A DNA stretch of 64,000 nt from Roseivivax halotolerans (GTDB lineage: Bacteria; Pseudomonadota; Alphaproteobacteria; Rhodobacterales; Rhodobacteraceae), in assembly GCF_900115815.1 (NCBI RefSeq), contig NZ_FOXV01000016.1:1-64000 (forward strand), read 5' to 3'. Under the pieces are notes generated by a model that was given only the letters and a program-made list of their open reading frames with translations, did no database searches and was not told the origin of the DNA. Shown here piece by piece: positions 31,954-50,052 of the stretch (within the stretch, counting starts at the first letter, position 1; every line of letters starts with the position of its first letter). Made by a program: the position numbers and the translations under genes.

Positions 31954-32919
31954 ATGTCCCGTATCGTCAAGGCGGCCGCCGTCCAGATCGCACCCGATCT
32001 GACCAGTCGTGACAAGACCCTCGCACGGGTGCTCGACGCCATCGACGAGGCTGCGGGCAACGGCGCCGATCTTGTCGTCTTTCCCGAAACCTTCGTCCCC
32101 TATTATCCATATTTCTCGTTCGTGCTGCCGCCCGTCCAGCAGGGCAAACCGCACCTTGCGCTATACGAGCAGGCGGTAACCGTTCCCTCGGATGAGACGC
32201 GCCGCGTCGCGCAACGCTGCGCCCATCACGGCGTCGTCGCCGTTCTGGGCATCAACGAGCGGGACCACGGGTCGCTGTACAACACACAGCTGATCCTCGA
32301 CGCCGATGGCACTCTGAGGCTCAAACGGCGCAAGATCACGCCGACCTACCATGAACGAATGGTCTGGGGGCAGGGAGACGGCTCCGGCCTGAAGGTGGTC
32401 GACACGCGTGTCGGTCGTCTCGGCGCGCTGGCCTGCTGGGAGCATTACAACCCGCTTGCCCGCTATGCGCTGATGACACAGCACGAGGAAATCCACGCCG
32501 CGCAGTTCCCCGGAAGTCTTGTCGGCCCGATTTTCGCCGAACAGATCGAGGTCACCATGCGCCACCACGCGCTGGAGGCTGGCTGCTTTGTCGTAAACGC
32601 CACCGGATGGCTGACCGAGGATCAGATCGCCTCGGTCACCGACGATGCCGCCCTCCAAAAGGGCCTGCGCGGTGGATGCATGACCTGCATCATCACACCC
32701 GAAGGCCGCCATGCTGTGCCGCCCCTGACCGAGGGCGAAGGCATCCTTTATGCCGACCTCGACATGGCGCTGGTGACCAAGCGCAAGCGCATGATGGACT
32801 CCGTCGGCCACTACGCGAGGCCCGAGCTTCTGGCGCTGCGCCACGACCCGTCACCCGTGGAGACGCGCCACTTGACCGCGCCCGAGGTGCCCTTCCCATC
32901 CATCCCGCTGGAGGACTGA
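31954..32919 (+). CDS. Nitrilase of the Nit1C cluster (NitC-like)
   Basis: A 321-residue carbon-nitrogen hydrolase that should convert a nitrile (in studied Nit1C systems, cyanide is implicated) to acid and ammonia. The catalytic triad is complete: Glu45 in FPETF, Lys127 in [11 protein letters not shown] and Cys161 in [12 protein letters not shown]. Length fits the nitrilase 1 branch, and the C-terminal region contains the [13 protein letters not shown] segment. It lies 52 bases after the MSMEG_0572-like gene and 4 bases before the radical SAM gene. Confidence 0.93.
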
Positions 32920-32923
32920 CCCA

Positions 32924-34042
32924 ATGCCAGATACCGGCTCCGTCATCACCGACCTGCAAACCCGCGGCATGCGGATGATCGACCCGCGCGCAGGCGCAGA
33001 CAGTCGCCGCGGCGGTGCGGGCCCAACCGACCACAAGGCGGTCACCATCGACGGGCTGACCGTGATGATCCCTGTCCACACCCATGCCGCTTTCGACAGC
33101 CCCTATATCGTCGACGCACCCGATGCCGAGGGACGCGCGCGCGTCACGCGGGACGGTACGTTTTTCGCTGAGATCAGCTTTCCAAAACGCGCGAGCTTCC
33201 TGGATCTCGCCACTGCGGATGGCATCCCCTACGGCCATATCGCACAGCTGCATGCGAAAGACGTTCTGGCCACGACCGTGCTGCAGACCTGCATCCGGTA
33301 CGAGAGCCGCAAGAAGACCTGCAAATTTTGCGCCATCGGCCAAAGTCTCGCGGCCGGGCGGACCATCGCCCACAAGACCCCCGCACAGCTGGCCGAGGTT
33401 GCGGCGGCTGCCGTCAAACTCGATGGCGTGAAGCACATGGTCATGACCACCGGAACCCCTGCGGGCAAGGACCGCGGCGCGCAGGTGCTCGCAGATAGCG
33501 CCGAGGCAATCCGCGCCGCCGTCGACCTGCCGCTTCAGGCGCAATGCGAGCCGCCCGAGGACGATGCCTGGCACCGGCGCATGAAGGATGCCGGGATCGA
33601 CAGTCTCGGCATGCATCTCGAGGTCGTCACGCCCGAGCTGCGCGCCGAGATCATGCCCGGTAAGGCGCAGGTCCCGCTGGAGAAATACTTCGACAGTTTC
33701 GCCGCCGCCGTCGACGTCTTCGGTTGGGGCCAGGTCTCGACCTATATCCTCGCGGGTCTGGGCGATACGCCGGAAGCGATCCTGGAGATGTCCGAACGGC
33801 TGACGGCGATTGGCGTCTATCCCTTCGTCGTGCCGTTCGTCCCCGTCTCTGGCACACCACTGGAAAGCCACGCCGCGCCGACCCCGGCGTTCATGCACAG
33901 CGTCCTGCCACCCTTGGCCGCCATGATCCGCAAGGCCGGGATGAGCGCTGAGGATATAAAGGCCGGTTGTGGACGCTGCGGCGCCTGTTCCGCGCTCTCG
34001 GCCTTCGAGAAATTCGCGCCGAAAGAGAAAGCGCTCGCATGA
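32924..34042 (+). CDS. Radical SAM protein of the Nit1C cluster (MSMEG_0568/NitD-like)
   Basis: A 372-residue enzyme with a radical SAM barrel. The probable [4Fe-4S] cysteines are Cys123, Cys133 and Cys136 (CIRYESRKKTCKFC), a CX9CX2C spacing rather than CX3CX2C. GTPAGKDRGA and ECE-type EPPEDD segments follow. A second cysteine cluster CGRCGAC lies near the C-terminus. Substrate is unknown, but conservation with nitrilase, GNAT and AIR-synthase-like partners suggests a shared biosynthetic or detoxification chemistry. Its TGA overlaps the next ATG. Confidence 0.88.
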   Translation: MPDTGSVITDLQTRGMRMIDPRAGADSRRGGAGPTDHKAVTIDGLTVMIPVHTHAAFDSPYIVDAPDAEGRARVTRDGTFFAEISFPKRASFLDLATADGIPYGHIAQLHAKDVLATTVLQTCIRYESRKKTCKFCAIGQSLAAGRTIAHKTPAQLAEVAAAAVKLDGVKHMVMTTGTPAGKDRGAQVLADSAEAIRAAVDLPLQAQCEPPEDDAWHRRMKDAGIDSLGMHLEVVTPELRAEIMPGKAQVPLEKYFDSFAAAVDVFGWGQVSTYILAGLGDTPEAILEMSERLTAIGVYPFVVPFVPVSGTPLESHAAPTPAFMHSVLPPLAAMIRKAGMSAEDIKAGCGRCGACSALSAFEKFAPKEKALA

Positions 34043-34584
34043 TCATCGAAAAGCCCAAAGCCTTCGTCACACCTGAATTCCTGATCCGCCAGGCGACGCA
34101 ACCTTGGGAAATTGGCGGGGCAGCGTCGCTTCGGCACCGCACCTTCGTGTCCGAACAGGGTATCTTCGCCGATCACGACCGTGACGAGATCGACAAGATC
34201 GCGCTGCCGCTGGTGGCCATCTCCACCATCGCAACCGAGGCCGACGAGGTCGTGGGCACGGTGCGTATCCACGAAGCCGATCCGGAGGTCTGGTGGGGCT
34301 CGCGCCTTGCCGTGGCGCCGGGCTACCGGCGTGTCGGGCGGCTCGGCGCCGAGCTGATCCGATTGGCTGTCGGCACCGCCCATGCGCGCGGAGCCAAACT
34401 GTTCCTCGCCTATGTGCAGATGCAGAACGTGCCGCTGTTCGAAAGGCTCGATTGGGAGGGGCTTGGCGCACAGGATCTGCACGGCCACCCGCACATGAAG
34501 ATGCGCGCCGACCTGTCGGCCTATCCCGCGATCGAGGACCCGGCGCGCGGTTGGATGGCATTGACGCGTCGGCGCGCCGCATGA
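34039..34584 (+). CDS. GNAT acetyltransferase of the Nit1C cluster (MSMEG_0567 N-terminal-like)
   Basis: A 181-residue GNAT-fold protein. EVVGTVRIHEADPEVWWGSRLAV is the usual strand pair before the acetyl-CoA loop, which reads PGYRRVGRLGAELI in place of the textbook Q/RxxGxG/A. In some genomes this domain is fused to the AIR-synthase-like protein encoded next; here the two are separate but overlap by ATGA. The open frame begins earlier inside the radical SAM gene; the ATG at 34039 is fixed by that overlap. Confidence 0.85.
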   Translation: MIIEKPKAFVTPEFLIRQATQPWEIGGAASLRHRTFVSEQGIFADHDRDEIDKIALPLVAISTIATEADEVVGTVRIHEADPEVWWGSRLAVAPGYRRVGRLGAELIRLAVGTAHARGAKLFLAYVQMQNVPLFERLDWEGLGAQDLHGHPHMKMRADLSAYPAIEDPARGWMALTRRRAA

Positions 34585-35561
34585 CCGACGTCGCTGCCCT
34601 TGCCGCAGATCTGGCCGCGCATCCCAACGTCACCGGCAAGCGCGACATCGACGTCGTTTGCGGCGCGCTGGGTCTGAGCCAGGACAGTCCGGGCCGTCCC
34701 GGCGACGATGCCGCCGCGCTGCCGGACGGCGACGGCTGGCAGCTGGTCGCGACCGAGGGTTTCATGAACGAATTCGTGGCCGATGCGCCCTGGTTCGCGG
34801 GCTGGTGCGCGGTCATGGTGAACCTGTCGGACATCGCGGCGATGGGCGGACGCGCCACGGCACTGACCAATGCACTCTGGACGCAGGGCCCGGACCAGGC
34901 CGCAGAGATCCTGCGCGGCATGGCCGAGGCAAGCGCGACCTATGGCGTGCCTATCGTTGGGGGCCATTCGAACCTGCGCACCGACCGCGCGCAACTCGCC
35001 GCAACCATGCAGGGCCGCGCACAGGCACTGATTACCAGCTTCGACGCCGAGCCGGGCGACGTGCTGATCGCGGCGGTCGATCTGCGCGGGTGCTACCCCG
35101 GCGAGAGCGACAATTTCGCGGCGTTCCTCGGTACGCCGGCTGAGCGCCTGCGCGGCGATCTCGAATTGCTGCCAGAGCTTGCCGAGGCCGGGCTCGTCCA
35201 CGCGGGCAAAGATATCAGCCAGGGTGGCATCGCGGGCACTGCCCTGATGCTGGCCGAATGCTCAGGCTGCGGGATAGACATCGATGTCGCCGTGATCCCG
35301 CGTCCCGAAGGTACGGATCTCGCGCGCTGGATGCGCACCTTCCCCAGCTTCGGCTTTCTTCTGGCAGCCAAGGCCGCGGATGTCTCTGCGATCTGCGCGC
35401 GCTTCGCCGCACGCAACATCGCCGCTGCCGAGATCGGCCGCATCACATCCGGCAGCGCGGTGACCTTGTGCGACGGAGCTGACCGCGCACCGCTCTGGGA
35501 CCTTGCGGCCCGGCGGTATCTGGGCCTCGCCCCCATCCAAAAGGAGCCGATCGATGCCTGA
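34581..35561 (+). CDS. AIR synthase-related protein of the Nit1C cluster (MSMEG_0567 C-terminal-like)
   Basis: A 326-residue PurM/SelD/ThiL-type ATP-dependent enzyme. The N-terminal half shows GDDAAALPDGDGWQLVATEG (nucleotide/metal-binding acidic pair) and MVNLSDIAAMGGRATALTNA. The C-terminal half has AGKDISQGGIAGTALMLAE. PurM-like enzymes activate an amide or carbonyl oxygen with ATP, fitting ring-closing or amidination chemistry, but the substrate is unknown. ATG at 34581 overlaps the GNAT stop; the 3' end overlaps the next gene by 8 bases. Confidence 0.88.
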   Translation: MTDVAALAADLAAHPNVTGKRDIDVVCGALGLSQDSPGRPGDDAAALPDGDGWQLVATEGFMNEFVADAPWFAGWCAVMVNLSDIAAMGGRATALTNALWTQGPDQAAEILRGMAEASATYGVPIVGGHSNLRTDRAQLAATMQGRAQALITSFDAEPGDVLIAAVDLRGCYPGESDNFAAFLGTPAERLRGDLELLPELAEAGLVHAGKDISQGGIAGTALMLAECSGCGIDIDVAVIPRPEGTDLARWMRTFPSFGFLLAAKAADVSAICARFAARNIAAAEIGRITSGSAVTLCDGADRAPLWDLAARRYLGLAPIQKEPIDA

Positions 35562-35832
35562 AGTGACCTTTCGTCTGCGCTGGCCCGACGGGACGGAGGA
35601 CACCTGCTATTCGCCGTCGACGGTGATCCGCGAGCACCTGAAGGCGGGTGAGTCCTATTCGCTGGCAGACTTCATGGACCGCGCAATTGATGGCCTCGAC
35701 CGGGCCGCACAGCGCGTCGAGGCCAAATTCGGCTTCCGCTGTAGCTCTGCCGATGCACAGGCCGCGCGGATCAAGTCCCGCGCCTCCGCCTATTCCCCCG
35801 AGGAGACGATCACATGCCTATCCATGACCTGA
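35554..35832 (+). CDS. MSMEG_0570 family small protein of the Nit1C cluster
   Basis: A 92-residue protein with FRLRWPDGTEDTCYSPSTVI near residues 5-24 and a helical C-terminal half (RAIDGLDRAAQRVEAKFGFRCSSA). It matches the small MSMEG_0570-type member found in Nit1C clusters; no activity is known. Two cysteines are present. The ATG at 35554 lies inside the end of the preceding gene and the end overlaps the flavoprotein gene by 19 bases, so the order is translationally packed. Confidence 0.82.
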   Translation: MPEVTFRLRWPDGTEDTCYSPSTVIREHLKAGESYSLADFMDRAIDGLDRAAQRVEAKFGFRCSSADAQAARIKSRASAYSPEETITCLSMT

Positions 35833-37103
35833 CAGCGGCACCCGAGGCCCGCACCCATCTGCCCGTCGTCATCATCGGCGCAGGCCAGGCGGGGATGTCG
35901 GCCTCGTGGCATCTGTGCCAAGCGGGCGTCGAGCACGTGGTTCTGGAGCGGAACACACGTTTTCATGCGTGGAAAAACCAGCGCTGGGACAGTTTCTGCC
36001 TCGTCACGCCGAACTGGCAGTGTCGCTTGCCGGGCTTCCCTTATTCTGGCGATGATCCGGGCGGCTTCATGCTCAAAGACGAAATCGTGGAATACGTGGA
36101 GGCCTTCGCGGAGAGTTTCGATGCGCCGCTGCGCGAGGGCGTCACCGTCTCCCGCGTCGCGCGCGATGCCGCGGGGCGCATCGAGGTAGATACCGATGGT
36201 GGGCTCTGGTCGGCCGATCACGTGATCGTGGCTTCGGGCGGCTATGATCGCCCCATCACGCCGCCCTTTGCGGCCGGTCTCGATCCGTCGATCACCCAGC
36301 TTCATACCCGCGACTACACTGGCCCGAATGACATCCCAGAGGGCCGCTGTCTCGTCGTTGGCACGGGCCAGTCCGGTGTGCAGCTGATGGAGGATCTGCA
36401 CATCGCGGGCCGCGATGTGTCACTCGCCGTTGGCCCCGCGCCGCGCAGTCCGCGCCAGTACCGGGGGCGCGACGCGACCGACTGGCTGCACGCGATGGGC
36501 TATTACGACATCACCATCGACCAGACGCCCGACCCCAAGGCGACTGAGGCCAAGACCAATCACTACATGTCGGGCCGCGATGGCGGACACGAGATCGACC
36601 TGCGCCGCTTCGCAAAAGACGGATTGCCGCTTTATGGCTCGGTCACCGGCATGGACGGCACGCTGATCTCCTTCGCGCCCGATCTGGAGAAAAACCTCGA
36701 TGACGCCGACAAGAGCTATGTCGGAATCCGCGAGATGATCGACGCCTACATCGCGCGTGAAGGCATCGACGCGCCAGTGGAGCCGCCCTTTGAGAAGGTC
36801 TGGCGCCCCGCGACCGAGATCACCGAGATCGACGCCGCCGAGGAGGGCATCACCTCTGTCCTGTGGTGCATCGGGTTCCGGCCAGATTACAGTTGGCTGC
36901 AGCTCGACTGCCTCGATCCCACCGGGCGCCCGGTGCATCGTCGCGGTGTCTGCGAGAACCCGGGCGTCTATTTCCTGGGGCTCAGCTGGCTGAATACTTG
37001 GGGCTCCGGGCGCTTCCTGAGCGTCGGCGAGGATGCCGAGTATGTCACGGGGGTGATCTCGGAGCGTCTGGACAAGCACGGGCGTGATCGGCGCTACGGC
37101 TGA
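35814..37103 (+). CDS. FAD-dependent oxidoreductase of the Nit1C cluster (MSMEG_0569/NitH-like)
   Basis: A 429-residue flavoprotein monooxygenase-like enzyme. An FAD-binding Rossmann motif VVIIGAGQAGMSASWHLCQAG begins near 18 (G-x-G-x-x-G) and a second dinucleotide motif VVGTGQSGVQ lies near 180. The ATG-like end IGFRPDYSWL and a closing GLSWLNTWGSG region follow. It resembles the flavin monooxygenase family and matches the MSMEG_0569-type member. In cyanide-assimilating bacteria an oxygenase step has been proposed for this cluster; here that is inference. Confidence 0.88.
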   Translation: MPIHDLTAAPEARTHLPVVIIGAGQAGMSASWHLCQAGVEHVVLERNTRFHAWKNQRWDSFCLVTPNWQCRLPGFPYSGDDPGGFMLKDEIVEYVEAFAESFDAPLREGVTVSRVARDAAGRIEVDTDGGLWSADHVIVASGGYDRPITPPFAAGLDPSITQLHTRDYTGPNDIPEGRCLVVGTGQSGVQLMEDLHIAGRDVSLAVGPAPRSPRQYRGRDATDWLHAMGYYDITIDQTPDPKATEAKTNHYMSGRDGGHEIDLRRFAKDGLPLYGSVTGMDGTLISFAPDLEKNLDDADKSYVGIREMIDAYIAREGIDAPVEPPFEKVWRPATEITEIDAAEEGITSVLWCIGFRPDYSWLQLDCLDPTGRPVHRRGVCENPGVYFLGLSWLNTWGSGRFLSVGEDAEYVTGVISERLDKHGRDRRYG

Positions 37104-42511: not shown

Positions 42512-43708
42512 TCACTTTCCCGAAACTTGGATAATCTCGGCCTCCGGTTTGGCTTCGATCGGAACGAAGCGCGCTCCTTCGGCGAGGCGGTTGGTGATCT
42601 CGGGGTCGGCATCCGCATCCAGCAGCATCAGCGGTGCATCTCGTGGCAATGACCTGAAAGAGTGCAGCTTGATGACGCGCCGCGTCTCACCCTTCTCCTT
42701 TACTGTCCCAAGCGTCAGCTGGGCGTCGAGTGCGGGATCGTCTTGCGCCAGACGCCTGAAAATCGCTTGGCGCTTCCGTGACGCCTGAAACGCACGACGA
42801 TCGAACATGTCGATGCGGAACGCCGTAGTTTTGCGGGGGTCCCACGGAAAGATCTCGAGCTCTGGACGTATCTCGGCCTCCGCTTTGCAAAAGGCCTCAA
42901 GGCGATCGCACGCAAACCTCTTGTCCTGCAATGCAGCCGAAACGCTTTTGCCAACGCGCAGCGCGGCGACGAGCTTTGTCCGCGCCTCCAGATACTCCTC
43001 CTGCAGATCCGTGGGAAAAGCGGCTCCCGGCGGGTCGAGAAAATCGTCCAGAGAGATTTGCATCGTTTTCACACGCGTCGACCAGACTTTTTCATCGATG
43101 ATCCGGATCGCGACAGGCACACGCTGGTCGATCGGTGGGAGTGCGTCGAGATAGGTATGCGCGAGGAAGATGATCCGGGTGCCCGTCACCTCTTTCTGCG
43201 CAAGGTAGTGGCAGCCTTGCGCACAAGGGGCATGGCGTATCTTGCCGGATTTGGAGCGTGCGCGGCACAGAGATTGGGTGATCGATGGCACGAGGCCCTG
43301 AACCTGGCGCACAAGGTCGTGTCGGTTGCACATGGGCGTGTCCGGATCATCGCTCCGCGGTGCGGTGCGGCCGCGAATGACCTGGATAGGCAAGCCCGTG
43401 CCCAAAGCGGCAAAATCGCGCGCGGCGCGGTCCGCGAGATCGAGCGTGGGCATATAGATCATCACATGACCGCGCTGAAGAAGCCGGGACCCCTGTTCGG
43501 CAAGAATGCGGAGCGCGGTCGACGTCTTGCCAAGGCCCGCGGTCACCTTGAACGCGATTGCGGGCGCAACCTCATCCGGCACGTCCTTTTCCTCCGCTAC
43601 AGATGAGATGAAATCAGACATCTCGTGATAGAGCCGTTGGCGCGCCTCTTTGGGCTCAAGCCAGTCCGGGATGGGCGCGGAGGCGTGGAGTTCTGTGTCG
43701 AAATGCAT
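42512..43708 (-). CDS. Helicase-like P-loop ATPase, probably C-terminally truncated
   Basis: A 398-residue protein with Walker A at KVTAGLGKTSTALRI (about 57-71), RGHVMIYMPTLDLADRAARDF (helicase motif Ia-like), a four-cysteine stretch between about 150 and 195 (MCNRHDLV, SLCRARS, APCAQGCHYLAQKE), and a DEKVW box in the motif II position. It ends soon after PLMLLDADADPEITNRLA, a motif III-like strand after which full-length helicases carry a second RecA domain. None is present, so it is probably truncated. Start at 43708 follows AAGGAAG. It diverges from the tandem-HTH gene. Confidence 0.7.
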   Translation of the reverse strand: MHFDTELHASAPIPDWLEPKEARQRLYHEMSDFISSVAEEKDVPDEVAPAIAFKVTAGLGKTSTALRILAEQGSRLLQRGHVMIYMPTLDLADRAARDFAALGTGLPIQVIRGRTAPRSDDPDTPMCNRHDLVRQVQGLVPSITQSLCRARSKSGKIRHAPCAQGCHYLAQKEVTGTRIIFLAHTYLDALPPIDQRVPVAIRIIDEKVWSTRVKTMQISLDDFLDPPGAAFPTDLQEEYLEARTKLVAALRVGKSVSAALQDKRFACDRLEAFCKAEAEIRPELEIFPWDPRKTTAFRIDMFDRRAFQASRKRQAIFRRLAQDDPALDAQLTLGTVKEKGETRRVIKLHSFRSLPRDAPLMLLDADADPEITNRLAEGARFVPIEAKPEAEIIQVSGK

Positions 43709-43814
43709 GCGGTCTTCCTTCGATTTTTGAAGACCTCTGATCGTCTCGTGTCCGCGCAAAACGTTTTGGGTGAAAAAGTCCGGGTCCCGTCGCGACAACA
43801 AAGGTGGGGGTGCT

Positions 43815-43833
43815 CTAAGAAGGATATTCTTAG
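43815..43833. promoter_or_regulatory. Dyad between the helicase-like and HTH genes
   Basis: CTAAGAA-GGATA-TTCTTAG is a perfect 7-base-arm palindrome in the divergent promoter region, 91 bases before the tandem-HTH start and 107 bases from the helicase start. It is a plausible operator for the HTH protein. Confidence 0.45.
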
Positions 43834-43923
43834 GCCGGTCCCATCTTTGGCATTTGTTTCCGTTTCTTTTGGGCGGATGTCCTCCGGACCCATCTTCTCT
43901 TTGCCACTGAAGAGGAGAGAATA

Positions 43924-44295
43924 ATGCTAAGGCTCGAGGAGGTCGCAGAGCATTACGGGCTGAAGCCCGACACGCTGCGACGAAAAATCAAAGAGGGGGC
44001 GTTACCCGCCATCAAGATCGGCCGGACATACCGGCTCAAGTGGACGGATGTCTGGTCTTGCGAAGAGGGCCGCATGCCGCGCGGTGCGGGACAGGCGCGT
44101 TACCGCGAGCCGCTCCTGAGCAAGAAAGCGGTGGCAGAGGCGCTCAGCGTCAGCGTGCGCAGCGTGGAGCGCTGGATCGAGGCCGGATTGCCGACACGCA
44201 ATGTCTTTGGCGCAGTGCGGTTCAACCCGCATGACGTGACCGATTGGCTGCGCGGGGCGCAGGATCTCGACCTGCCGGGGGAGTGGTGGCGATGA
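43924..44295 (+). CDS. Tandem helix-turn-helix (excisionase/MerR-like) protein
   Basis: A 123-residue protein with two HTH_17-like units. The first is LRLEEVAEHYGLKPDTLRRKIKEGALPAIKIGR at about 2-35, quoted here by its ends, and the second is LSKKAVAEALSVSVRSVERW at about 68-87, with VRFNPHDVTDWLRG following. Each has the winged K/R-x-G-R or V-R-F segment typical of excisionase-type DNA binders. AGGAG precedes the ATG. It lies upstream of two recombinase genes and could be their directionality factor or repressor. Confidence 0.8.
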   Translation: MLRLEEVAEHYGLKPDTLRRKIKEGALPAIKIGRTYRLKWTDVWSCEEGRMPRGAGQARYREPLLSKKAVAEALSVSVRSVERWIEAGLPTRNVFGAVRFNPHDVTDWLRGAQDLDLPGEWWR

Positions 44296-44483
44296 GTGAT
44301 CTCGTGCGTCGCACAGAAAATGCCGGGAGCTCGCTGACACGGGCGGGAGGGCTGCGTCTGTCGCACATGCGCCCCCAATCATTCATCGGCGTCATGTTTG
44401 ACCCTGTCCGTGCGAATCCGGGGAAAACCCCGACTGGATGTGCGAAACCCCGACAGCTTACGCGTAGCTCTCCTGCTCCGGCC

Positions 44484-44536
44484 ATGGCCCGGTTCGGAGT
44501 GTCTTTGGGTCCGAAGACACTCCGAACCGAGGCCAT
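44484..44536. repeat. Long palindrome before the recombinase pair
   Basis: Perfect 15-base arms GGTTCGGAGTGTCTT (44491-44505) and AAGACACTCCGAACC (44514-44528) flank an 8-base spacer TGGGTCCG. Outer arms ATGGCC (44484-44489) and GGCCAT (44531-44536) extend it. It ends 15 bases before the ATG of the first recombinase, overlapping its ribosome-site region upstream. No T tract follows, so it does not look like a plain terminator. Confidence 0.9.
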
Positions 44537-44551
44537 GAAAAGGAGCAAGAC

Positions 44552-46489
44552 ATGATTTATCAACCAAACAAGATCGAGATCCCCCAAGCGACGCTCGGTG
44601 ACGTGCTCGCATGGGCGGAAGCCACCGGGGAAAAGCGCGACGCGATCTATGAGCTGAAGAAGGTGCCTGCGCGGCTGAACACGGCGCTCGAAGAAATCGG
44701 CCTCCTGCCGGCAGATCTGAAGCACTTCGAGCAGGTCGTTGCACCCGCGCCTTACGGCATGGTCTCGAGCAGCAAGGATCTCGAACAGGCGCGGCGGCGC
44801 GGAAACTCGCGTGTCCGCGGGTTGCTCGAGCGGTTCTGGGCAGCTCAGTGCGACCAACCGCCTACCCTGGAAAACGTGGCGCAGAGCTATACAGACCTGA
44901 TCGACTGGGTTCGCGCGCATGAAGGCTTCGTCGAGCATGGTGCCCGCTTCACGACGTCCACGCATAAATGCCTCTTTGCGTTGCGCGCCCGGTGCCAGGT
45001 GCCGCTGCCGGAGCTCGATCAAGGCGAGATCGATCGTGTCTTCGCAGAAGCGACAACGGAGAAGCGGAAATCGCTGCAGCGTGGGGTGAAACTTCTGAAC
45101 AGGCTGCAGCGCGGCATGAATGCCTGGCCGGAGATCCGGCCGCTGCTGTCGAAGACGAATTTCGAGATCCCGAAATCCTCCGATCGCGCGGAGCGCATTC
45201 TGTGGGCATCGCTTCCGGAAGCAATGCGCTGCGATGCGGAGACCGTGTTCCGCGAAGTGCTGATGACCCAGGACGATCTCAGCGCCTGGGCAAAGGCGCA
45301 GATGGCGGCGGGGGTCGCGTCTCTCGAGATCGACCAGGCCGTGGCGCAGAAGGTCAAGATACGGGGCCGCCGACCGAGAAACAGCAAGACTGCTCTTTCG
45401 GGATATCAGGGTGCAGTAACCTGGCTCGCGCGCAGCGTGAGACAGCATGAAGGTGGCCTGTCCCAGATCGCAGGTCTGCGGGATCTCATGACCCGCGACC
45501 GCATCTCCAAGGCTATCGAGGACCAAATCGCCCGGTCCCAGGCATCGCTTTTGCTGAAAGCCCCTAAGAAGACCCAAACGCTGGGGAACCGGCTCAAGAA
45601 CCTGAGAGCCATCGCGCGGAATGGGCTCTACGACCCGGAAATCGTCGCGCATGTGGACGTGCTGCGCGTCGTCTTTGACGATTACGTCGTCACGCCGCGC
45701 GAGATGCATGACCATGCCGAAGAGATCTGCAAGCTGCTGCAACGGCGGCCGGACCTTGCGGCGAAGCTCGTGAATGCGCCTGCAGCCCTCGCTTCAAAGG
45801 CAGAGGCGTGGCTCAAAGACGCGCGTGATCAGCAGGATGAACAGCGCGAGCTTGCAGCACTCCGGCTCTTTGCGGCGGCCGTGCTGCACGCCATCCAGAT
45901 GTCGCGCCCACTAAGGCCCGCCAACCTCATCGCGCTTCGGTGCCAAGGCTGTCAGGAAATCGCTGGCAACCTCACATGGGTCCGCAAGGGCGGACATGCC
46001 GAACTGCGCTTCGCACCGGGCGAGATCAAGAATGATCGAGAGGTCACGGTCCATGTGATTGGCGCGGATGCGCAGATCCTCGCGGACTGGATGGAAAGAC
46101 ACCGCCCCCGCCTTCTGGAGCTAATGCGTCTCTCCGACAGTCCCTACATCTTCCCGGGGCAGGCGAGCCCGCGCAATGTCAAGGACGTGATCACCCTGCC
46201 CCATGGCTGCATGTCAGCGTCCAGCTTCGCGGAGTTGTGGGCGCTCGGGGCTCAGAAAGTTGGTCTGGGCCTGACGCCGCATCTCTGCCGGCACGCGCTG
46301 GCAACGCTCATTCTCGCGATCGAGCCCGGCAACTTCGCCAAGGCCGCAGCGGTCCTCGGTGACACGGAAGAGACCGTGCGACGTCACTATGGGCGGGACA
46401 GCGGCGAAGAGGCCGCGAAGTCAGTGCGCGCGGCGCTGCTCGCGCGGCATCCCGCGCTCTTCAAATCCATGAAGCGGAGACTCAAATGA
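44552..46489 (+). CDS. Large tyrosine recombinase 1
   Basis: A 645-residue protein whose C-terminal third is a tyrosine-recombinase catalytic domain. The first arginine lies in LRPANLIALRC near 455, HxxR in LTPHLCRHALATL near 585-597, and the tyrosine in TEETVRRHYGRDS near 610-620. The long N-terminal 400 residues have no recognised family but include helical segments consistent with an arm/core-binding part. AAGGAGC precedes the ATG. It overlaps recombinase 2 by ATGA, so the two are coexpressed. Such large recombinases are typical of genomic-island modules. Confidence 0.85.
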   Translation: MIYQPNKIEIPQATLGDVLAWAEATGEKRDAIYELKKVPARLNTALEEIGLLPADLKHFEQVVAPAPYGMVSSSKDLEQARRRGNSRVRGLLERFWAAQCDQPPTLENVAQSYTDLIDWVRAHEGFVEHGARFTTSTHKCLFALRARCQVPLPELDQGEIDRVFAEATTEKRKSLQRGVKLLNRLQRGMNAWPEIRPLLSKTNFEIPKSSDRAERILWASLPEAMRCDAETVFREVLMTQDDLSAWAKAQMAAGVASLEIDQAVAQKVKIRGRRPRNSKTALSGYQGAVTWLARSVRQHEGGLSQIAGLRDLMTRDRISKAIEDQIARSQASLLLKAPKKTQTLGNRLKNLRAIARNGLYDPEIVAHVDVLRVVFDDYVVTPREMHDHAEEICKLLQRRPDLAAKLVNAPAALASKAEAWLKDARDQQDEQRELAALRLFAAAVLHAIQMSRPLRPANLIALRCQGCQEIAGNLTWVRKGGHAELRFAPGEIKNDREVTVHVIGADAQILADWMERHRPRLLELMRLSDSPYIFPGQASPRNVKDVITLPHGCMSASSFAELWALGAQKVGLGLTPHLCRHALATLILAIEPGNFAKAAAVLGDTEETVRRHYGRDSGEEAAKSVRAALLARHPALFKSMKRRLK

Positions 46490-47835
46490 CCCATCCTTCG
46501 CTCGACGACCACCTGCAACCGGTTCCCTTGCCCGTGAAGCGCGCCATGCTTGAGGACGCCGCTTCGCTCGAGCCGGGCGCGGCTGCAGTGATAGGGCGCT
46601 TCTTCGCGATCCTGCAGGATCGGCGCGAACCGGTGGCGGCCCCCAGCGCGGAGAGCTTCCGCCAGGCGGCCGCCTCGGAGTCGACCTTCCGCGCGCTTCT
46701 TCGGGCGCTCGCCCGCTATGCGCCGGATGTCTCGACCTCCTCGGCGGTTGAGGTGAAGGCAGAGTGGGTGTCGCGCCGACCAAAGCCGAAGCCCCGGCAG
46801 CCTGCCGGGGGAGAAAAAGTTCAGAAACCTCGGATTGACCCTAACACCTGGCCGCGGAGTTGGCAGAAAATGGAGCAACGGCTTGCCGAGGCAAAAATCA
46901 AAGAGAGCAGCCTGGCGCGCTATCGTGCTTCCGTGCATCGTTGCGCCCAGCTCGTTGCCGCGGGCCATGGATCTGAAACACTGGGTTTTGTGACGGGGAT
47001 CGCGCTCGTCGAGGCGTTCCGGGAGACGGAGCCGGGGAAAAAGCCCCTGCGACCGGCGACGATCGCAAATTACCTCGAAGGCCTGATCATGCTCGGCAAG
47101 CACGGCGGGGCGCACGAAGATGCGCTGGCAAGCTTGCGCTTTATCGTCGAAGACCTTCGAGAGAATGCGCGCGCGGTCGGCAAGGTGAAATATCCGCGTC
47201 TGGCAAAGATCACGGAAGCCGGTGGCTTTGCCTTTATCGCGGATCGTATTGGCGAGATGCGGCAGGAGGCCGAAGCACTGCCGGACCATGCTTCCGAGAA
47301 GGTACAGCTCTTTCAAGCGACGGCCCTCTGTGCAGTCAGCATGAACAAGCCCGGCCGGACAGGCGACGTGTCCCGGTGGTGCCTTGGAGAAGAGCTGGTC
47401 CGAGAAAGCGACGGGACATGGGTGCTCGCCTGGGAACAGGGCAAGACCGGGTATGAAACCGAAGCTGGACGTCTTTGGCCCGAAGTGTCCGAGGTTCTGG
47501 ATGCGCTGATTCTCGGCGGCCGCCCCGATTGGTTCGTGCATATGCGCTATCGCGCCCTTCTTGGCATGAACTGGCTGACACTCGGTCAAAGAGCGATGTC
47601 GGAGAAATGGCCGAGCTCGGTGGTCAAAGTCGCGATCGGCGTTCCGCTGCACGACCTGCGCACGCTCGCTGCGGATTACATGCGCCGGCATGATCCCGAG
47701 CGCGCGGCGGATGTCATCTCCTCTCATCTCGGTCACAGAACGAGCCGTGCTGGAGACGCTTACCGATCCGAGAGCGAAGGCGAGGCGGCCGCGAAAGGTT
47801 GGGCAGAGATGCGGTGGCAGATCGCCAAAGGATAG
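46486..47835 (+). CDS. Tyrosine recombinase 2
   Basis: A 449-residue protein starting inside the stop of recombinase 1. Its C-terminal half carries tyrosine-recombinase elements: the first arginine in KPGRTGDVSRW near 290-300, HxxR in LHDLRTLAADYM near 388-400, and ISSHLGHRTSRAGDAYRS with the second histidine and the candidate tyrosine near 415-430. A proline/lysine-rich linker (about 95-115) separates a helical N-terminal part. Paired expression with recombinase 1 suggests a hetero-oligomeric integrase. Confidence 0.82.
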   Translation: MTHPSLDDHLQPVPLPVKRAMLEDAASLEPGAAAVIGRFFAILQDRREPVAAPSAESFRQAAASESTFRALLRALARYAPDVSTSSAVEVKAEWVSRRPKPKPRQPAGGEKVQKPRIDPNTWPRSWQKMEQRLAEAKIKESSLARYRASVHRCAQLVAAGHGSETLGFVTGIALVEAFRETEPGKKPLRPATIANYLEGLIMLGKHGGAHEDALASLRFIVEDLRENARAVGKVKYPRLAKITEAGGFAFIADRIGEMRQEAEALPDHASEKVQLFQATALCAVSMNKPGRTGDVSRWCLGEELVRESDGTWVLAWEQGKTGYETEAGRLWPEVSEVLDALILGGRPDWFVHMRYRALLGMNWLTLGQRAMSEKWPSSVVKVAIGVPLHDLRTLAADYMRRHDPERAADVISSHLGHRTSRAGDAYRSESEGEAAAKGWAEMRWQIAKG

Positions 47836-47883
47836 AGCCCGTCACTTATGCAAAAGTGGGAGAGGGAGCGTCCGCGGCGACGC

Positions 47884-47928
47884 CATCCTTGGGCCCGGGT
47901 CCTCAACTTGAGACCCGATCCAAGGATG
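47884..47928. repeat. Nested palindrome after the recombinase pair
   Basis: Outer arms CATCCTTGG (47884-47892) and CCAAGGATG (47920-47928) enclose inner near-palindromic sequence GGGTCCTCAACTTGAGACCC. The structure begins 49 bases after the recombinase 2 stop. It lacks a T tract. Confidence 0.85.
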
Positions 47929-48000
47929 ACGCGCTGCGTCGCATAAAAGCCTGCAGGATCTTTGGTCTCAACCCAACTCAATACTCTGAAAGGAAACTGC

Positions 48001-48384
48001 ATGCAGCATTTTGCTCCCGCCGTGACGCGGGCTGAACCTGTTCGTGCTGACAAAGGCACCGCGCTTCATATCCTCTTCTCTCTTCATGGCGAGGAACTCT
48101 ACGACGCTGCCGAAGCGCTTGGGGGGCCGCGTGGCGTGCGTCTCGTCTCCCGCCTCGACGCTCAGCTTCGAAAGGCGACGGAGGTCACCCGCGCTGCCCG
48201 ACAGCTGGCGGGCGAGCTCGTGAGGCTTCTTATGCTCGACGGCGTCGATGGCCTCGAAAGCGAAGAAGCTGGACACTTCGCTCAAATCGATCCCGCGAGC
48301 GAGCTCGTGCATATGATCTGTCGGCTCACGGATTTGCTCCTAGATGCGCTTTCATCCATCGAAAGAGAACGATCTCAAAGGTGA
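48001..48384 (+). CDS. Hypothetical protein of the recombinase block
   Basis: A 127-residue, mostly helical protein with no recognised domain. Segments such as RLDAQLRKATEVTRAARQLA suggest a coiled coil. GAAAGGAAACTGC gives a usable ribosome site before the ATG at 48001. It sits between recombinase 2 and a terminator at 48394, in a row of small genes of similar style. Function cannot be inferred. Confidence 0.65.
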   Translation: MQHFAPAVTRAEPVRADKGTALHILFSLHGEELYDAAEALGGPRGVRLVSRLDAQLRKATEVTRAARQLAGELVRLLMLDGVDGLESEEAGHFAQIDPASELVHMICRLTDLLLDALSSIERERSQR

Positions 48385-48393
48385 GCCCTCTAC

Positions 48394-48427
48394 CCCGCCG
48401 CCGCGTGTCTCCAAGGCGGCGGGTTTT
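48394..48427 (+). terminator. Rho-independent terminator in the recombinase block
   Basis: CCCGCCGCC (48394-48402) and GGCGGCGGG (48415-48423) form a 9-base GC stem with a 12-base loop, followed by TTTT. It lies just after the 127-residue hypothetical gene. Confidence 0.8.
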
Positions 48428-48485
48428 GTCAGCGCCGGTTCGAAGATCAGCCCTGTGGCTGACACCGGACGCTCGGAGACTCACC

Positions 48486-48791
48486 ATGAAGGATTCATTC
48501 GAAGATCCGAACGCCGAGCGCGCGCATATCCATGCGTATCAAATCGCGCACTTTTGCAAATGGCACGGCGCGAGCCTTTGCGACATTCTCGAGGTCGTCG
48601 CGGGTGAAGTCGGCGTCAACCTGTGCTGCGACCTGCTCGGTGCGCTGAGCCAGAAACACCCTGATCCCGCACTCGTGGCCGAGCTCGTGGACCGCGCGCG
48701 GTCCATGCTCGAAGTCGCCCAAGACGTGCCGGAGGCCGCGCGGGATGCGCATCGCTGGCACGGGGCAAGGCTCAGTGAACTTTCAGCATAG
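48486..48791 (+). CDS. Hypothetical protein of the recombinase block
   Basis: A 101-residue protein, acidic and helical, with cysteines in HFCKWHGASLCDILEV and VNLCCDLLG. No family is recognised. The ATG at 48486 was preferred over an upstream in-frame start inside the terminator region because the upstream part is basic, low-complexity and overlaps the stem. Same orientation as the recombinases but transcriptionally separated by the terminator. Confidence 0.6.
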   Translation: MKDSFEDPNAERAHIHAYQIAHFCKWHGASLCDILEVVAGEVGVNLCCDLLGALSQKHPDPALVAELVDRARSMLEVAQDVPEAARDAHRWHGARLSELSA

Positions 48792-49177
48792 CTAGGCAAA
48801 GAATGTGCGCTCCGGCGGCTTACGTCGGGGCGCACAAAAGATCTGGCGAGTTCCCTTTTGGCGACCTTGCGATCGCGCAATCTCGTCTTCAGACACGGCG
48901 ATGAGCGCGTCAGCGTGATCACCGCAGGACAGCCTCGCCTGCGCGATGCAGGCACAGGCGAGCATCGCCAAAAGGCGGTTTTTTTTGAAAGAAAAGGTTC
49001 GCGACTCCGTTGCTGAACCCAATTGTTAAGAGTGCCAGGCAGACCAAGGCCAGGCGCATCGTTCATCATCGCCGACGGCCCGGGCAAACCCAGCGGATCA
49101 AAGCGAAAGCCCGTTGCGACATTCATCCTTTGATTGGGAACTCCGATCCACCGACCCAAACCCCGAAAGGAATAGCC
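48792..49177. other. Intergenic region with terminator-like hairpins
   Basis: The 386 bases contain an 8-base inverted repeat CTCGCCTG/CAGGCGAG (48934-48962), followed by CGCC-AAAA-GGCG and eight T residues up to about 48986. This is a plausible terminator on the plus strand. A minus-strand open frame (48792-49022) crosses it but has no recognised domain and is not called. Confidence 0.5.
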
Positions 49178-49546
49178 ATGGGACTTGATGTTGATTTTCT
49201 GGATGGCGAAAGCCGAGAAGAGATCCTGTACTTGCGCAAGCCGGAGGTTTTCTTCATCGCTCTTGGCACCAAGCAGGGCGAGATCGTCGAGGAGCCGTAT
49301 TCTGACTTCTGGGTCTACGAAGAGGACCTTGCGGAAACGGCTTCGGAACTGGCCGGCAGAGGTGCCAAATATCAGAAAGCGTCGTCAGAGTTGCCTTCCC
49401 TTAGAGAAATCGAGACCGCATTAAATGATCTAAGTCCGAGCGAAGCTGATGCACGCTCCGAACTCGATGACGCGTTGCTTATCGCGTTGGTATTGCAGGC
49501 GTATGTCGAAAAGAACGGGAAAATTATTTGCGCTTGGTCGGCTTGA
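49178..49546 (+). CDS. Hypothetical acidic protein
   Basis: A 122-residue acidic protein with no recognised family. Visible features are LDGESREEILYLRKPEVFFI near 8-27, a glutamate/alanine-rich middle and a final helix ending VLQAYVEKNGKIICAW. CGAAAGGAATAGCC precedes the ATG at 49178. It lies just before the IS1595-type relic and may be cargo of the same accessory block. Confidence 0.6.
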   Translation: MGLDVDFLDGESREEILYLRKPEVFFIALGTKQGEIVEEPYSDFWVYEEDLAETASELAGRGAKYQKASSELPSLREIETALNDLSPSEADARSELDDALLIALVLQAYVEKNGKIICAWSA

Positions 49547-49620: not shown

Positions 49621-50052
49621 GAAGACTTCGCCACGCAGGTGCTGAAGATGATGCGAGGCCTCTCGAAGTGGCAGCTCCCCATTCTAACCGTCGCTGACCG
49701 CGGCGGAGCGCACCTCTTCCGCCGCCTGCCGGACCGCAAAGGCGTGACGCTGGAGCGGGCCATGAGGCCACTGGTGCCAAGCGCCGCCGTGCTCTGCTCG
49801 GATGGCGCTAACGGCTATAAAAATCTCGCAGCAGCGAGCGGCATCGAACACTTCGTGGTCGGCAGCAAGGCCGGCACGCGCGTGGCTTTAGGCTGCTATC
49901 ACATCCAAAACGTTAACTCGCTCCATGCCCGCTACAAAAGGTTCGTCAAGCCATTCTGCGGACCGGCCTCGAAGAACCTCAATGGCTATATTCGCTGGCT
50001 GGAGGTGCGGCTGGCGGGTATGCGCCCGGCGGAGATTGTCCGCGCATCGTAA
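49621..50052 (+). pseudogene. IS1595-family transposase fragment
   Basis: The reading frame after a TAG at 49618 matches the DDE_Tnp_IS1595 catalytic domain: LPILTVADRGGAHLFRRLPD, SAAVLCSDGANGYKNLAA, and the closing HIQNVNSLHARYKRFVKPFCG/GPASKNLNGYIRWLE region. The zinc-ribbon N-terminus and first catalytic part are absent, and upstream sequence has stops in all frames. It is therefore a remnant. No inverted repeats were found. Confidence 0.75.

Follow-up and report, generated by a model that had tools for sequence, protein, structure and literature searches.

A predicted site-specific recombination module with two tyrosine recombinases on roseobacter plasmids and genomic islands

Introduction

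What might two very different, overlapping recombinase genes, preceded by a gene for an excisionase-like protein, do for the DNA that carries them? This question is raised by a locus at positions 42,512–49,546 of the window, as we call the stretch of 64,000 nucleotides analyzed here (Roseivivax halotolerans, RefSeq assembly GCF_900115815.1, contig NZ_FOXV01000016.1, positions 1 to 64,000 of the forward strand). An earlier note, made from the letters alone, had described the locus as a candidate mobile module composed of a tandem helix-turn-helix (HTH) protein, an overlapping recombinase pair, a divergent helicase-like gene and small proteins, and we found the named open reading frames (ORFs), the 4-bp overlap and the divergent gene all in place. 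We label the two recombinases RecA and RecB; RecA is not the homologous-recombination protein of that name. We propose, as a tentative reading that falls a little short of being probable, that the locus encodes a self-contained site-specific recombination module that acts on its own internal site rather than integrating islands; cutting and rejoining of plasmids or genomic islands is probably what this set of genes does. The analysis points to a tightly co-varying recombinase pair and to a predicted cognate site that exists in two or more versions; the pair is a possible recombination tool and bears on how roseobacter plasmids and islands stay monomeric or exchange DNA. To our knowledge, few dedicated systems for either task are known in roseobacters.

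Results and discussion

Two predicted tyrosine recombinases and a tandem-HTH protein

The two recombinase genes lie on the plus strand at 44,552–46,489 (RecA, 645 amino acids) and 46,486–47,835 (RecB, 449 amino acids), and their reading frames share the four bases ATGA. At the profile level, the resemblance of RecA to integrases is weak (E = 0.01 for Pfam PF00589, which does not reach the cut-off of that family, and E = 3.5e-6 for PHROG 1), and RecB matched no family of Pfam, NCBIfam or PHROGs. We built AlphaFold models from alignments of 16 sequences for RecA (pLDDT 82, pTM 0.53) and 17 for RecB (pLDDT 86.5, pTM 0.64). The best solved neighbors found by Foldseek were Xer and the integron integrase for RecA (best E = 1.2e-3, probability 1.00) and Cre for RecB (best E = 1.4e-3, probability 1.00), with modest query-normalized TM-scores (0.20–0.27 for RecA and about 0.4 for RecB). 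In alignments of 22 rows, which leave out broken or cut copies and one near-duplicate, R455, K493, H577, R580 and Y613 of RecA and R291, K320, H389, R392 and Y426 of RecB were invariant (22 out of 22 in each). The RecB of the window has the full R-K-HxxR-(H/W)-Y set, including H417, and its RecA has all but the box-III histidine, in whose place stands D604. Because the structural neighbors and the conserved residues agree, we conclude, from sequence and predicted structure, that RecA and RecB are both tyrosine recombinases.

Upstream, the tandem-HTH protein (43,924–44,295, plus strand, 123 amino acids), for which we made a family profile, has two stretches that match HTH_17 and also matches TIGR01764 (excise) in a profile search, which bears out its earlier description as an excisionase-like tandem HTH.

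Conservation and co-variation of the module genes

We assembled 27 loci, six of them from plasmid records and 20 from genomes, plus the window. In the plasmid collection, 10 records matched RecA and 9 matched RecB, nine being common to both (Roseivivax, Roseovarius and Thioclava) and the tenth RecA record being a partial match in Microvirga. One strain, Roseivivax marinus TCYB24, carries related modules on each of three plasmids. Among 394 genomes of the window's family, 23 matched the RecB profile, a count that takes in the window's own genome and three weak matches (E > 1e-10); in a class-level draw it was 2 of 385 genomes, namely the window's own and one weak match; an initial scan of genome contigs with RecB peptides had returned no matches. 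RecA adjoins RecB in 24 of the 27 loci, and RecB is broken by stops in the other three (L046, L050 and L051). A member of the HTH family is present in 23 of 27 loci, where several matches are weak (a distant group) and some lie on the other strand. The order HTH-recombinase-recombinase, which the earlier note had singled out for a search in other genomes, is therefore conserved among family genomes and plasmids.

The reading frames of both recombinases are uninterrupted in the window and at most of the 27 loci, and the ratio of nonsynonymous to synonymous substitution rates (dN/dS) between the window and its close relative on plasmid pTHAF197b_a (L002), a single sequence pair, is 0.19 for RecA, 0.13 for RecB and 0.09 for the HTH protein (0.09–0.25 across the module genes). 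These observations argue against regarding the module as a leftover of mobile elements in decay that no longer does anything. Signs of decay do occur, in that the window has a truncated helicase-like gene and pTHAF197b_a a split one, the RecB of that plasmid (L002, 11,935–13,284) has an internal stop next to an open RecA and HTH gene, and RecB is broken in the three loci named above; we nevertheless consider a relic most improbable.

Next, we compared the distances between the module proteins across loci, leaving out the broken RecB of L002, L046, L050 and L051. RecA and RecB distances were correlated with a Mantel r of 0.981 (23 loci), and HTH distances with those of RecA at 0.856 (22 loci) and of RecB at 0.827 (21 loci). 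For s1, a small conserved protein encoded downstream that we aligned from 17 loci, the values were 0.322 with RecA (16 loci; 17 of 2000 permutations came at least as high) and 0.310 with RecB. Shared ancestry inflates all these correlations, and their informative part is the contrast with s1. A comparison of two islands (L039 and L042) adds to this picture: the RecA-RecB stretch is 65–73% identical at the DNA level, in pieces, while both flanks are 84–88% identical. Because this stretch has diverged while both flanks have stayed similar, RecA and RecB look to have been swapped as one unit between the two islands.

A predicted recombination site between hth and recA

Between the hth and recA genes we predict a core-type recombination site with arm repeats, which the earlier note had not described. 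The core (44,370–44,406, plus strand) consists of imperfect inverted half-sites around a 7-bp spacer, ATCGGCG (44,385–44,391). Alignment places two arm-type repeats GTCGCACA to its left, at 44,308–44,315 (outer) and 44,360–44,367 (inner), and two to its right, TGCGAA at 44,411–44,416 (inner) and TGTGCGA at 44,439–44,445 (outer), all given on the plus strand; by itself, the word GTCGCACA does not exceed its chance frequency in the window. Across the window's clade the order, with letter changes at single loci, is TCGCACA, TCGCACA, a core of about CGTCCCC(A/G)AACATNN-ATCGGCG-TNATGTTTGGGGGCG, TGCGAAA and TGTGCGA. In the alignment of the hth-recA region (11 loci, of which 9 were scored once near-duplicates had been removed), no other stretch of 17 nt is conserved as well as the core. 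At L005, whose RecA is 31% identical to that of the window, the core and the 24-base distance to the left arm (counted by eye) are kept, and the arm letters differ (TTCCAAA/TTTGGAA). Spacers of 7 bp also recur in differing cores, in five clade-2 loci (L006, L007, L041, L048 and L049), where a core of about TTT-ACGGNCC-AAA lies between GAACGAAACG-like and CGTTTCGTTCA-like arms, and in two of the six clade-3 loci (L052 and L054), which have a third core type.

To see where such sites occur independently of any protein, we scanned 84,980 genomes with a 23-nt core pattern. There were 14 matches, 13 of which lie directly downstream of an HTH gene of the module family, and nine of these 13 are independent of the motif derivation. 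RecA follows in 11 of the 13; of the other two, L162 ends 247 bases past the site and L163 is an HTH gene with its site and no RecA. Twelve of the 13 are from Rhodobacterales, and the remaining one (L158) is a metagenome-assembled genome labelled Alteromonadaceae. The fourteenth match (Akkermansiaceae) has no HTH gene and looks like chance. A left-half pattern, allowing up to three mismatches, had nine matches in the 394 family genomes; eight are module sites with their right halves, and the ninth (G112) has no adjoining HTH or recombinase gene and resembles coding sequence. At the loci themselves, the patterns that we used revealed neither a second long core nor a split one, and the locus scan counted no second core with inner half-sites. 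Nine stray matches to the spacer, paired at chance level, also turned up in that scan (in L002, L007, L042, L044, L045, L049 and L108), and it did not pick up the window, L002, L006 and L007, whose sites are weakly paired. For nine further core matches on viral contigs, neither an HTH gene nor RecA lay in the sequence examined.

Islands that carry the module have another integrase

Several chromosomal copies of the module lie near tRNA genes: tRNA-Asn in L040, L042, L043 and L044 (with a partial copy in L047), tRNA-Ser in L038 and L045, and tRNA-Gln in L052. The chromosomal tRNA islands with the module carry a separate integrase, which is a Pfam phage integrase in L038, L053, L057 and a 468-aa protein of L043, and a DUF6538 protein in L044 (above the cut-off) and in L043 and L052 (below the cut-off); homologues of these separate integrases are present in further loci. 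A search for direct repeats between the tRNA regions and the left sides of the islands, which might mark island ends, gave 11-mers in three of seven loci and nothing in four. The earlier note's proposal of a mobile module thus stands in part. A conserved unit in which RecA and RecB look exchanged together is seen, and a bounded element is not: with the patterns used we found no conserved ends, and no split site, empty site or excised form.

As a side observation, the right side of the tRNA-Asn islands (L042, L043, L047 and L108) carries a DUF6538-type integrase of about 757–804 aa, and some of these genes overlap that of a second integrase of about 402–468 aa, another pair of a long and an ordinary enzyme. 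The two such proteins that we compared have no profile similarity to RecA or RecB.

A tentative model and its alternatives

Recombination at an own site fits better than integration, because the site is intact on plasmids as well as in islands with a separate integrase. RecA and RecB would assemble into a heteromeric tyrosine-recombinase complex, bind the two inverted half-sites that make up the core between hth and recA, and carry out strand exchange over the 7-bp spacer. The tandem-HTH protein (and perhaps s1 and s2) would bind the arm repeats and set the direction and timing of the reaction, as accessory and excisionase-type proteins do elsewhere. Most likely, the module would recombine one copy of its site with another on circular DNA, either resolving multimers of plasmids or excised islands, or fusing and separating replicons that have the same site. 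The sequences themselves show that the catalytic residues are kept, that RecA, RecB and the HTH protein co-vary tightly, that the long core is nearly exclusive to the module, and that the cores of the clades differ at equal spacer length; strand exchange at the core, the assignment of proteins to DNA and the biological role are inferred.

A number of points weigh against this proposal, beginning with the enzymes and the site itself. The box-III histidine is absent from RecA in all 24 copies (D, N or S instead), and it is replaced by Q in 5 of 25 copies of RecB (the badly broken L050 and L051 are uncounted). Cores were chosen by eye at 20 loci, and their best spacing was 7 bp in 13, 11 bp in five and 9 bp in two; among the 11 aligned loci, the spacer reads ATCGGCG in nine, ATTGGCG in L038 and ATTGGGG in L040. 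The window core pairs at 6 of 14 positions, and it would not have been recognized on its own, because 104 of 779 nearby positions pair equally well or better. The core palindromes of L002 (6), L006 (6) and L007 (7) are also poor, and no such core was found in L053, L055, L056 and L057. No recombination product was seen, and nothing supports multimer resolution directly.

To the same points belongs that conserved DNA adjoining an HTH gene could be an operator. If it were a mere operator, the HTH protein would control recA-recB, and the recombinases would act elsewhere or aid the tRNA integrase. HTH gene and site do occur together even where no recombinase genes adjoin (L004 and L163/L180), and regulation is also suggested by a strong hairpin (44,490–44,529, plus strand) immediately upstream of the recA ribosome-binding site, a real palindrome that accords with those the earlier note had reported near the module. 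A hairpin at this place is found in the window, L002, L038, L039, L040, L042, L043, L045, L052 and L054; its stem letters vary with pairing kept, and an apex of CTT(8 nt)AAG recurs in several, which suggests control at the RNA level. The center of the predicted core, by contrast, looks like a place of strand exchange, as an asymmetric stretch of 7 bp is largely kept within inverted half-sites and is 7 bp long again in other clades. We regard an operator without a recombination function as distinctly unlikely.

A more serious alternative, doubtful but quite possible, is that the site is a true attP, that RecA and RecB serve as paired integrases, and the HTH protein as excisionase, for a plasmid-like element that integrates, and that the copies we see are its circular plasmid form or islands brought into the chromosome by another integrase. 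A core, arms on both sides, an adjoining recombinase and an excisionase-type HTH protein are what such an element would have. In L004 (7459–17,980), moreover, a unit of RecA, RecB and HTH genes lies about 6 kb from a second unit of HTH gene and site, and the two bracket chromate and metal genes, and G356 (L046/L180) has corresponding units with other cargo between them, where RecB is broken and RecA was not found. These split units, which mobility would also explain, are the main lead for a role in mobility and count against our proposal. The same is true of the short core word CATNNATCGGCGNNATG, which occurs, with up to one mismatch, 11–21 times per genome in 13 genomes as compared with 0–4 times for a reversed control, and has several exact matches outside modules among the matches listed. 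A weakly matching attB could hide among these occurrences; the excess over the control may come from codon use, and at the one off-module match that we inspected (G394 C40) neither HTH nor RecA is present. What speaks against an attP is that the 23-nt core occurs without a family HTH gene only once, and there chance-like, in the 84,980 genomes, that the site is intact in chromosomal islands as well, and that no split left half was found in the 394 family genomes, a result confined to left halves, as right halves were not searched.

Two further candidates were rejected. PADLOC gave only borderline matches to defense proteins, Cas12c on RecA (E = 0.0047) and PbeA on a helicase (E = 0.0097), which we consider noise. 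For a phage origin, RecB, the one protein searched, had no match in phage records.

Comparison with known recombination systems

XerC and XerD are two recombinases of about 300 aa that act with the chromosomal dif site, and cer, TnpI-IRS and TnpS/TnpT-rst are resolution systems of plasmids or transposons. All these resemble the module in having two recombinases (or one and a helper), a single internal site of inverted half-sites, and accessory sites. The module enzymes, at 645 and 449 aa, are 1.5–2 times longer, however, and the site is tied to its own HTH gene; unlike dif, it is carried by plasmids and islands, next to its cognate genes. The features annotated around the six plasmid loci, to a distance of about 10 kb, include no Tn3-type transposase. 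A lambda-type attP with int and xis shares with the module a core with a 7-bp spacer, flanking arms and an excisionase-type helper, but the module has two recombinases, and no attL or attR was found. Integrases of tRNA islands have attL and attR at the island ends, whereas the module site is intact between hth and recA and other integrases lie near the tRNA gene. RIT elements differ in having a recombinase trio where the module operon has two.

Tn554-type elements (TnpA/TnpB/TnpC; among the Famint tandems; PMC3414803) are like the module in that a long and an ordinary tyrosine recombinase adjoin, often with a small third protein. The module differs in its HTH gene and core site before the long enzyme, in the order long-short and in that no element ends were found. 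Plasmid pNL1 is listed as carrying a Tn554-like tandem (PMC3414803), and our sequence comparison with Tn554 covers pNL1 genes: a long/short/small set, chosen by reading the annotation, and a three-integrase cluster. With hmmsearch, RecA and RecB had no match to these genes at E = 10, and the best hhalign probabilities were 41% (short recombinase) and 49% (trio recombinase), both to the C-terminal catalytic part of RecA.

GInt (ginABCD; PMC5385486) and SE (intA-tfp-intB-srap; PMC10214605) elements likewise have several divergent tyrosine recombinases and a small protein, and one recombinase-fold partner with an altered active site. In GInt, however, ginABC are three recombinase-fold genes followed by ginD, whereas the module operon has two and the island integrases are separate genes. 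In SE, tfp lies between intA and intB, whereas recA and recB overlap by 4 bp with no gene between them. SE elements end in inverted terminal repeats of 13–19 bp with a 6-bp footprint; in the module we found an internal core with a 7-bp spacer and no conserved ends. In the literature, ginC-ginD blocks are reported from Gamma- and Betaproteobacteria and not from Alphaproteobacteria, and SEs from Gammaproteobacteria only (PMC10214605).

By the features tested, the module is not Tn554, GInt, SE, RIT or XerCD-dif. This agrees with the earlier note's impression that it matches neither RIT nor GInt-type islands; the distinction is one of gene content, and for Tn554 also one of sequence, with one plasmid compared. 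We found no description of the RecA/RecB pair in the open-licence literature. Whether the pair stands for an unnamed heteromeric class of Rhodobacterales, in which an altered long enzyme and a complete short one dock or resolve replicons at a self-encoded site that is not an integration end, is a bolder idea that we think rather unlikely.

Neighboring genes

The helicase-like gene (42,512–43,801, minus strand, 429 aa, with a ResIII-type P-loop) had been counted as part of the module. We rejected it as a fixed part, as it was not seen in most plasmid loci, and the ORF of the window is itself truncated at its 3' end: relatives in L038–L040 and L042–L044 are 744–777 aa long, and DNA homology between the window and pTHAF197b_a stops at 42,520, inside the gene. 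Full-length helicase-like genes are present in many islands, as is a coiled-coil gene (KfrA-like by reading, not by profile), and neither accompanies all modules.

Downstream of recB on the plus strand are s1 (48,001–48,384; ORF 47,962–48,384) and s2 (48,486–48,791; ORF 48,381–48,791), whose likely starts, ATG 48,001 and ATG 48,486, are read from the sequence, as is that of s3 (ATG 49,178), which matched no ORF when compared with those of the six plasmid loci. The s1 family is present in 59 of the 394 family genomes. Its standing as a strict partner of the recombinases is weakened, as seven of 12 inspected s1 loci (L144–L155) have no A/B-like profile match in the stretch. In the other five (L145, L148, L149, L154 and L155), s1 lies near more divergent A-like and B-like recombinases, and because of these the module may be part of a larger superfamily.

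Left of the module in L039, L040, L047 and L108 is a pair of genes for an N6/N4 methylase and a UvrD-type helicase (Pfam was run on L047 only), possibly a defense system. In the window, a fragment of an IS1595-family transposase lies just right of the module (49,639–50,052), and a Nit6803-type nitrilase gene with MSMEG_0568 and MSMEG_0569 family genes occupies 31,954–37,103.

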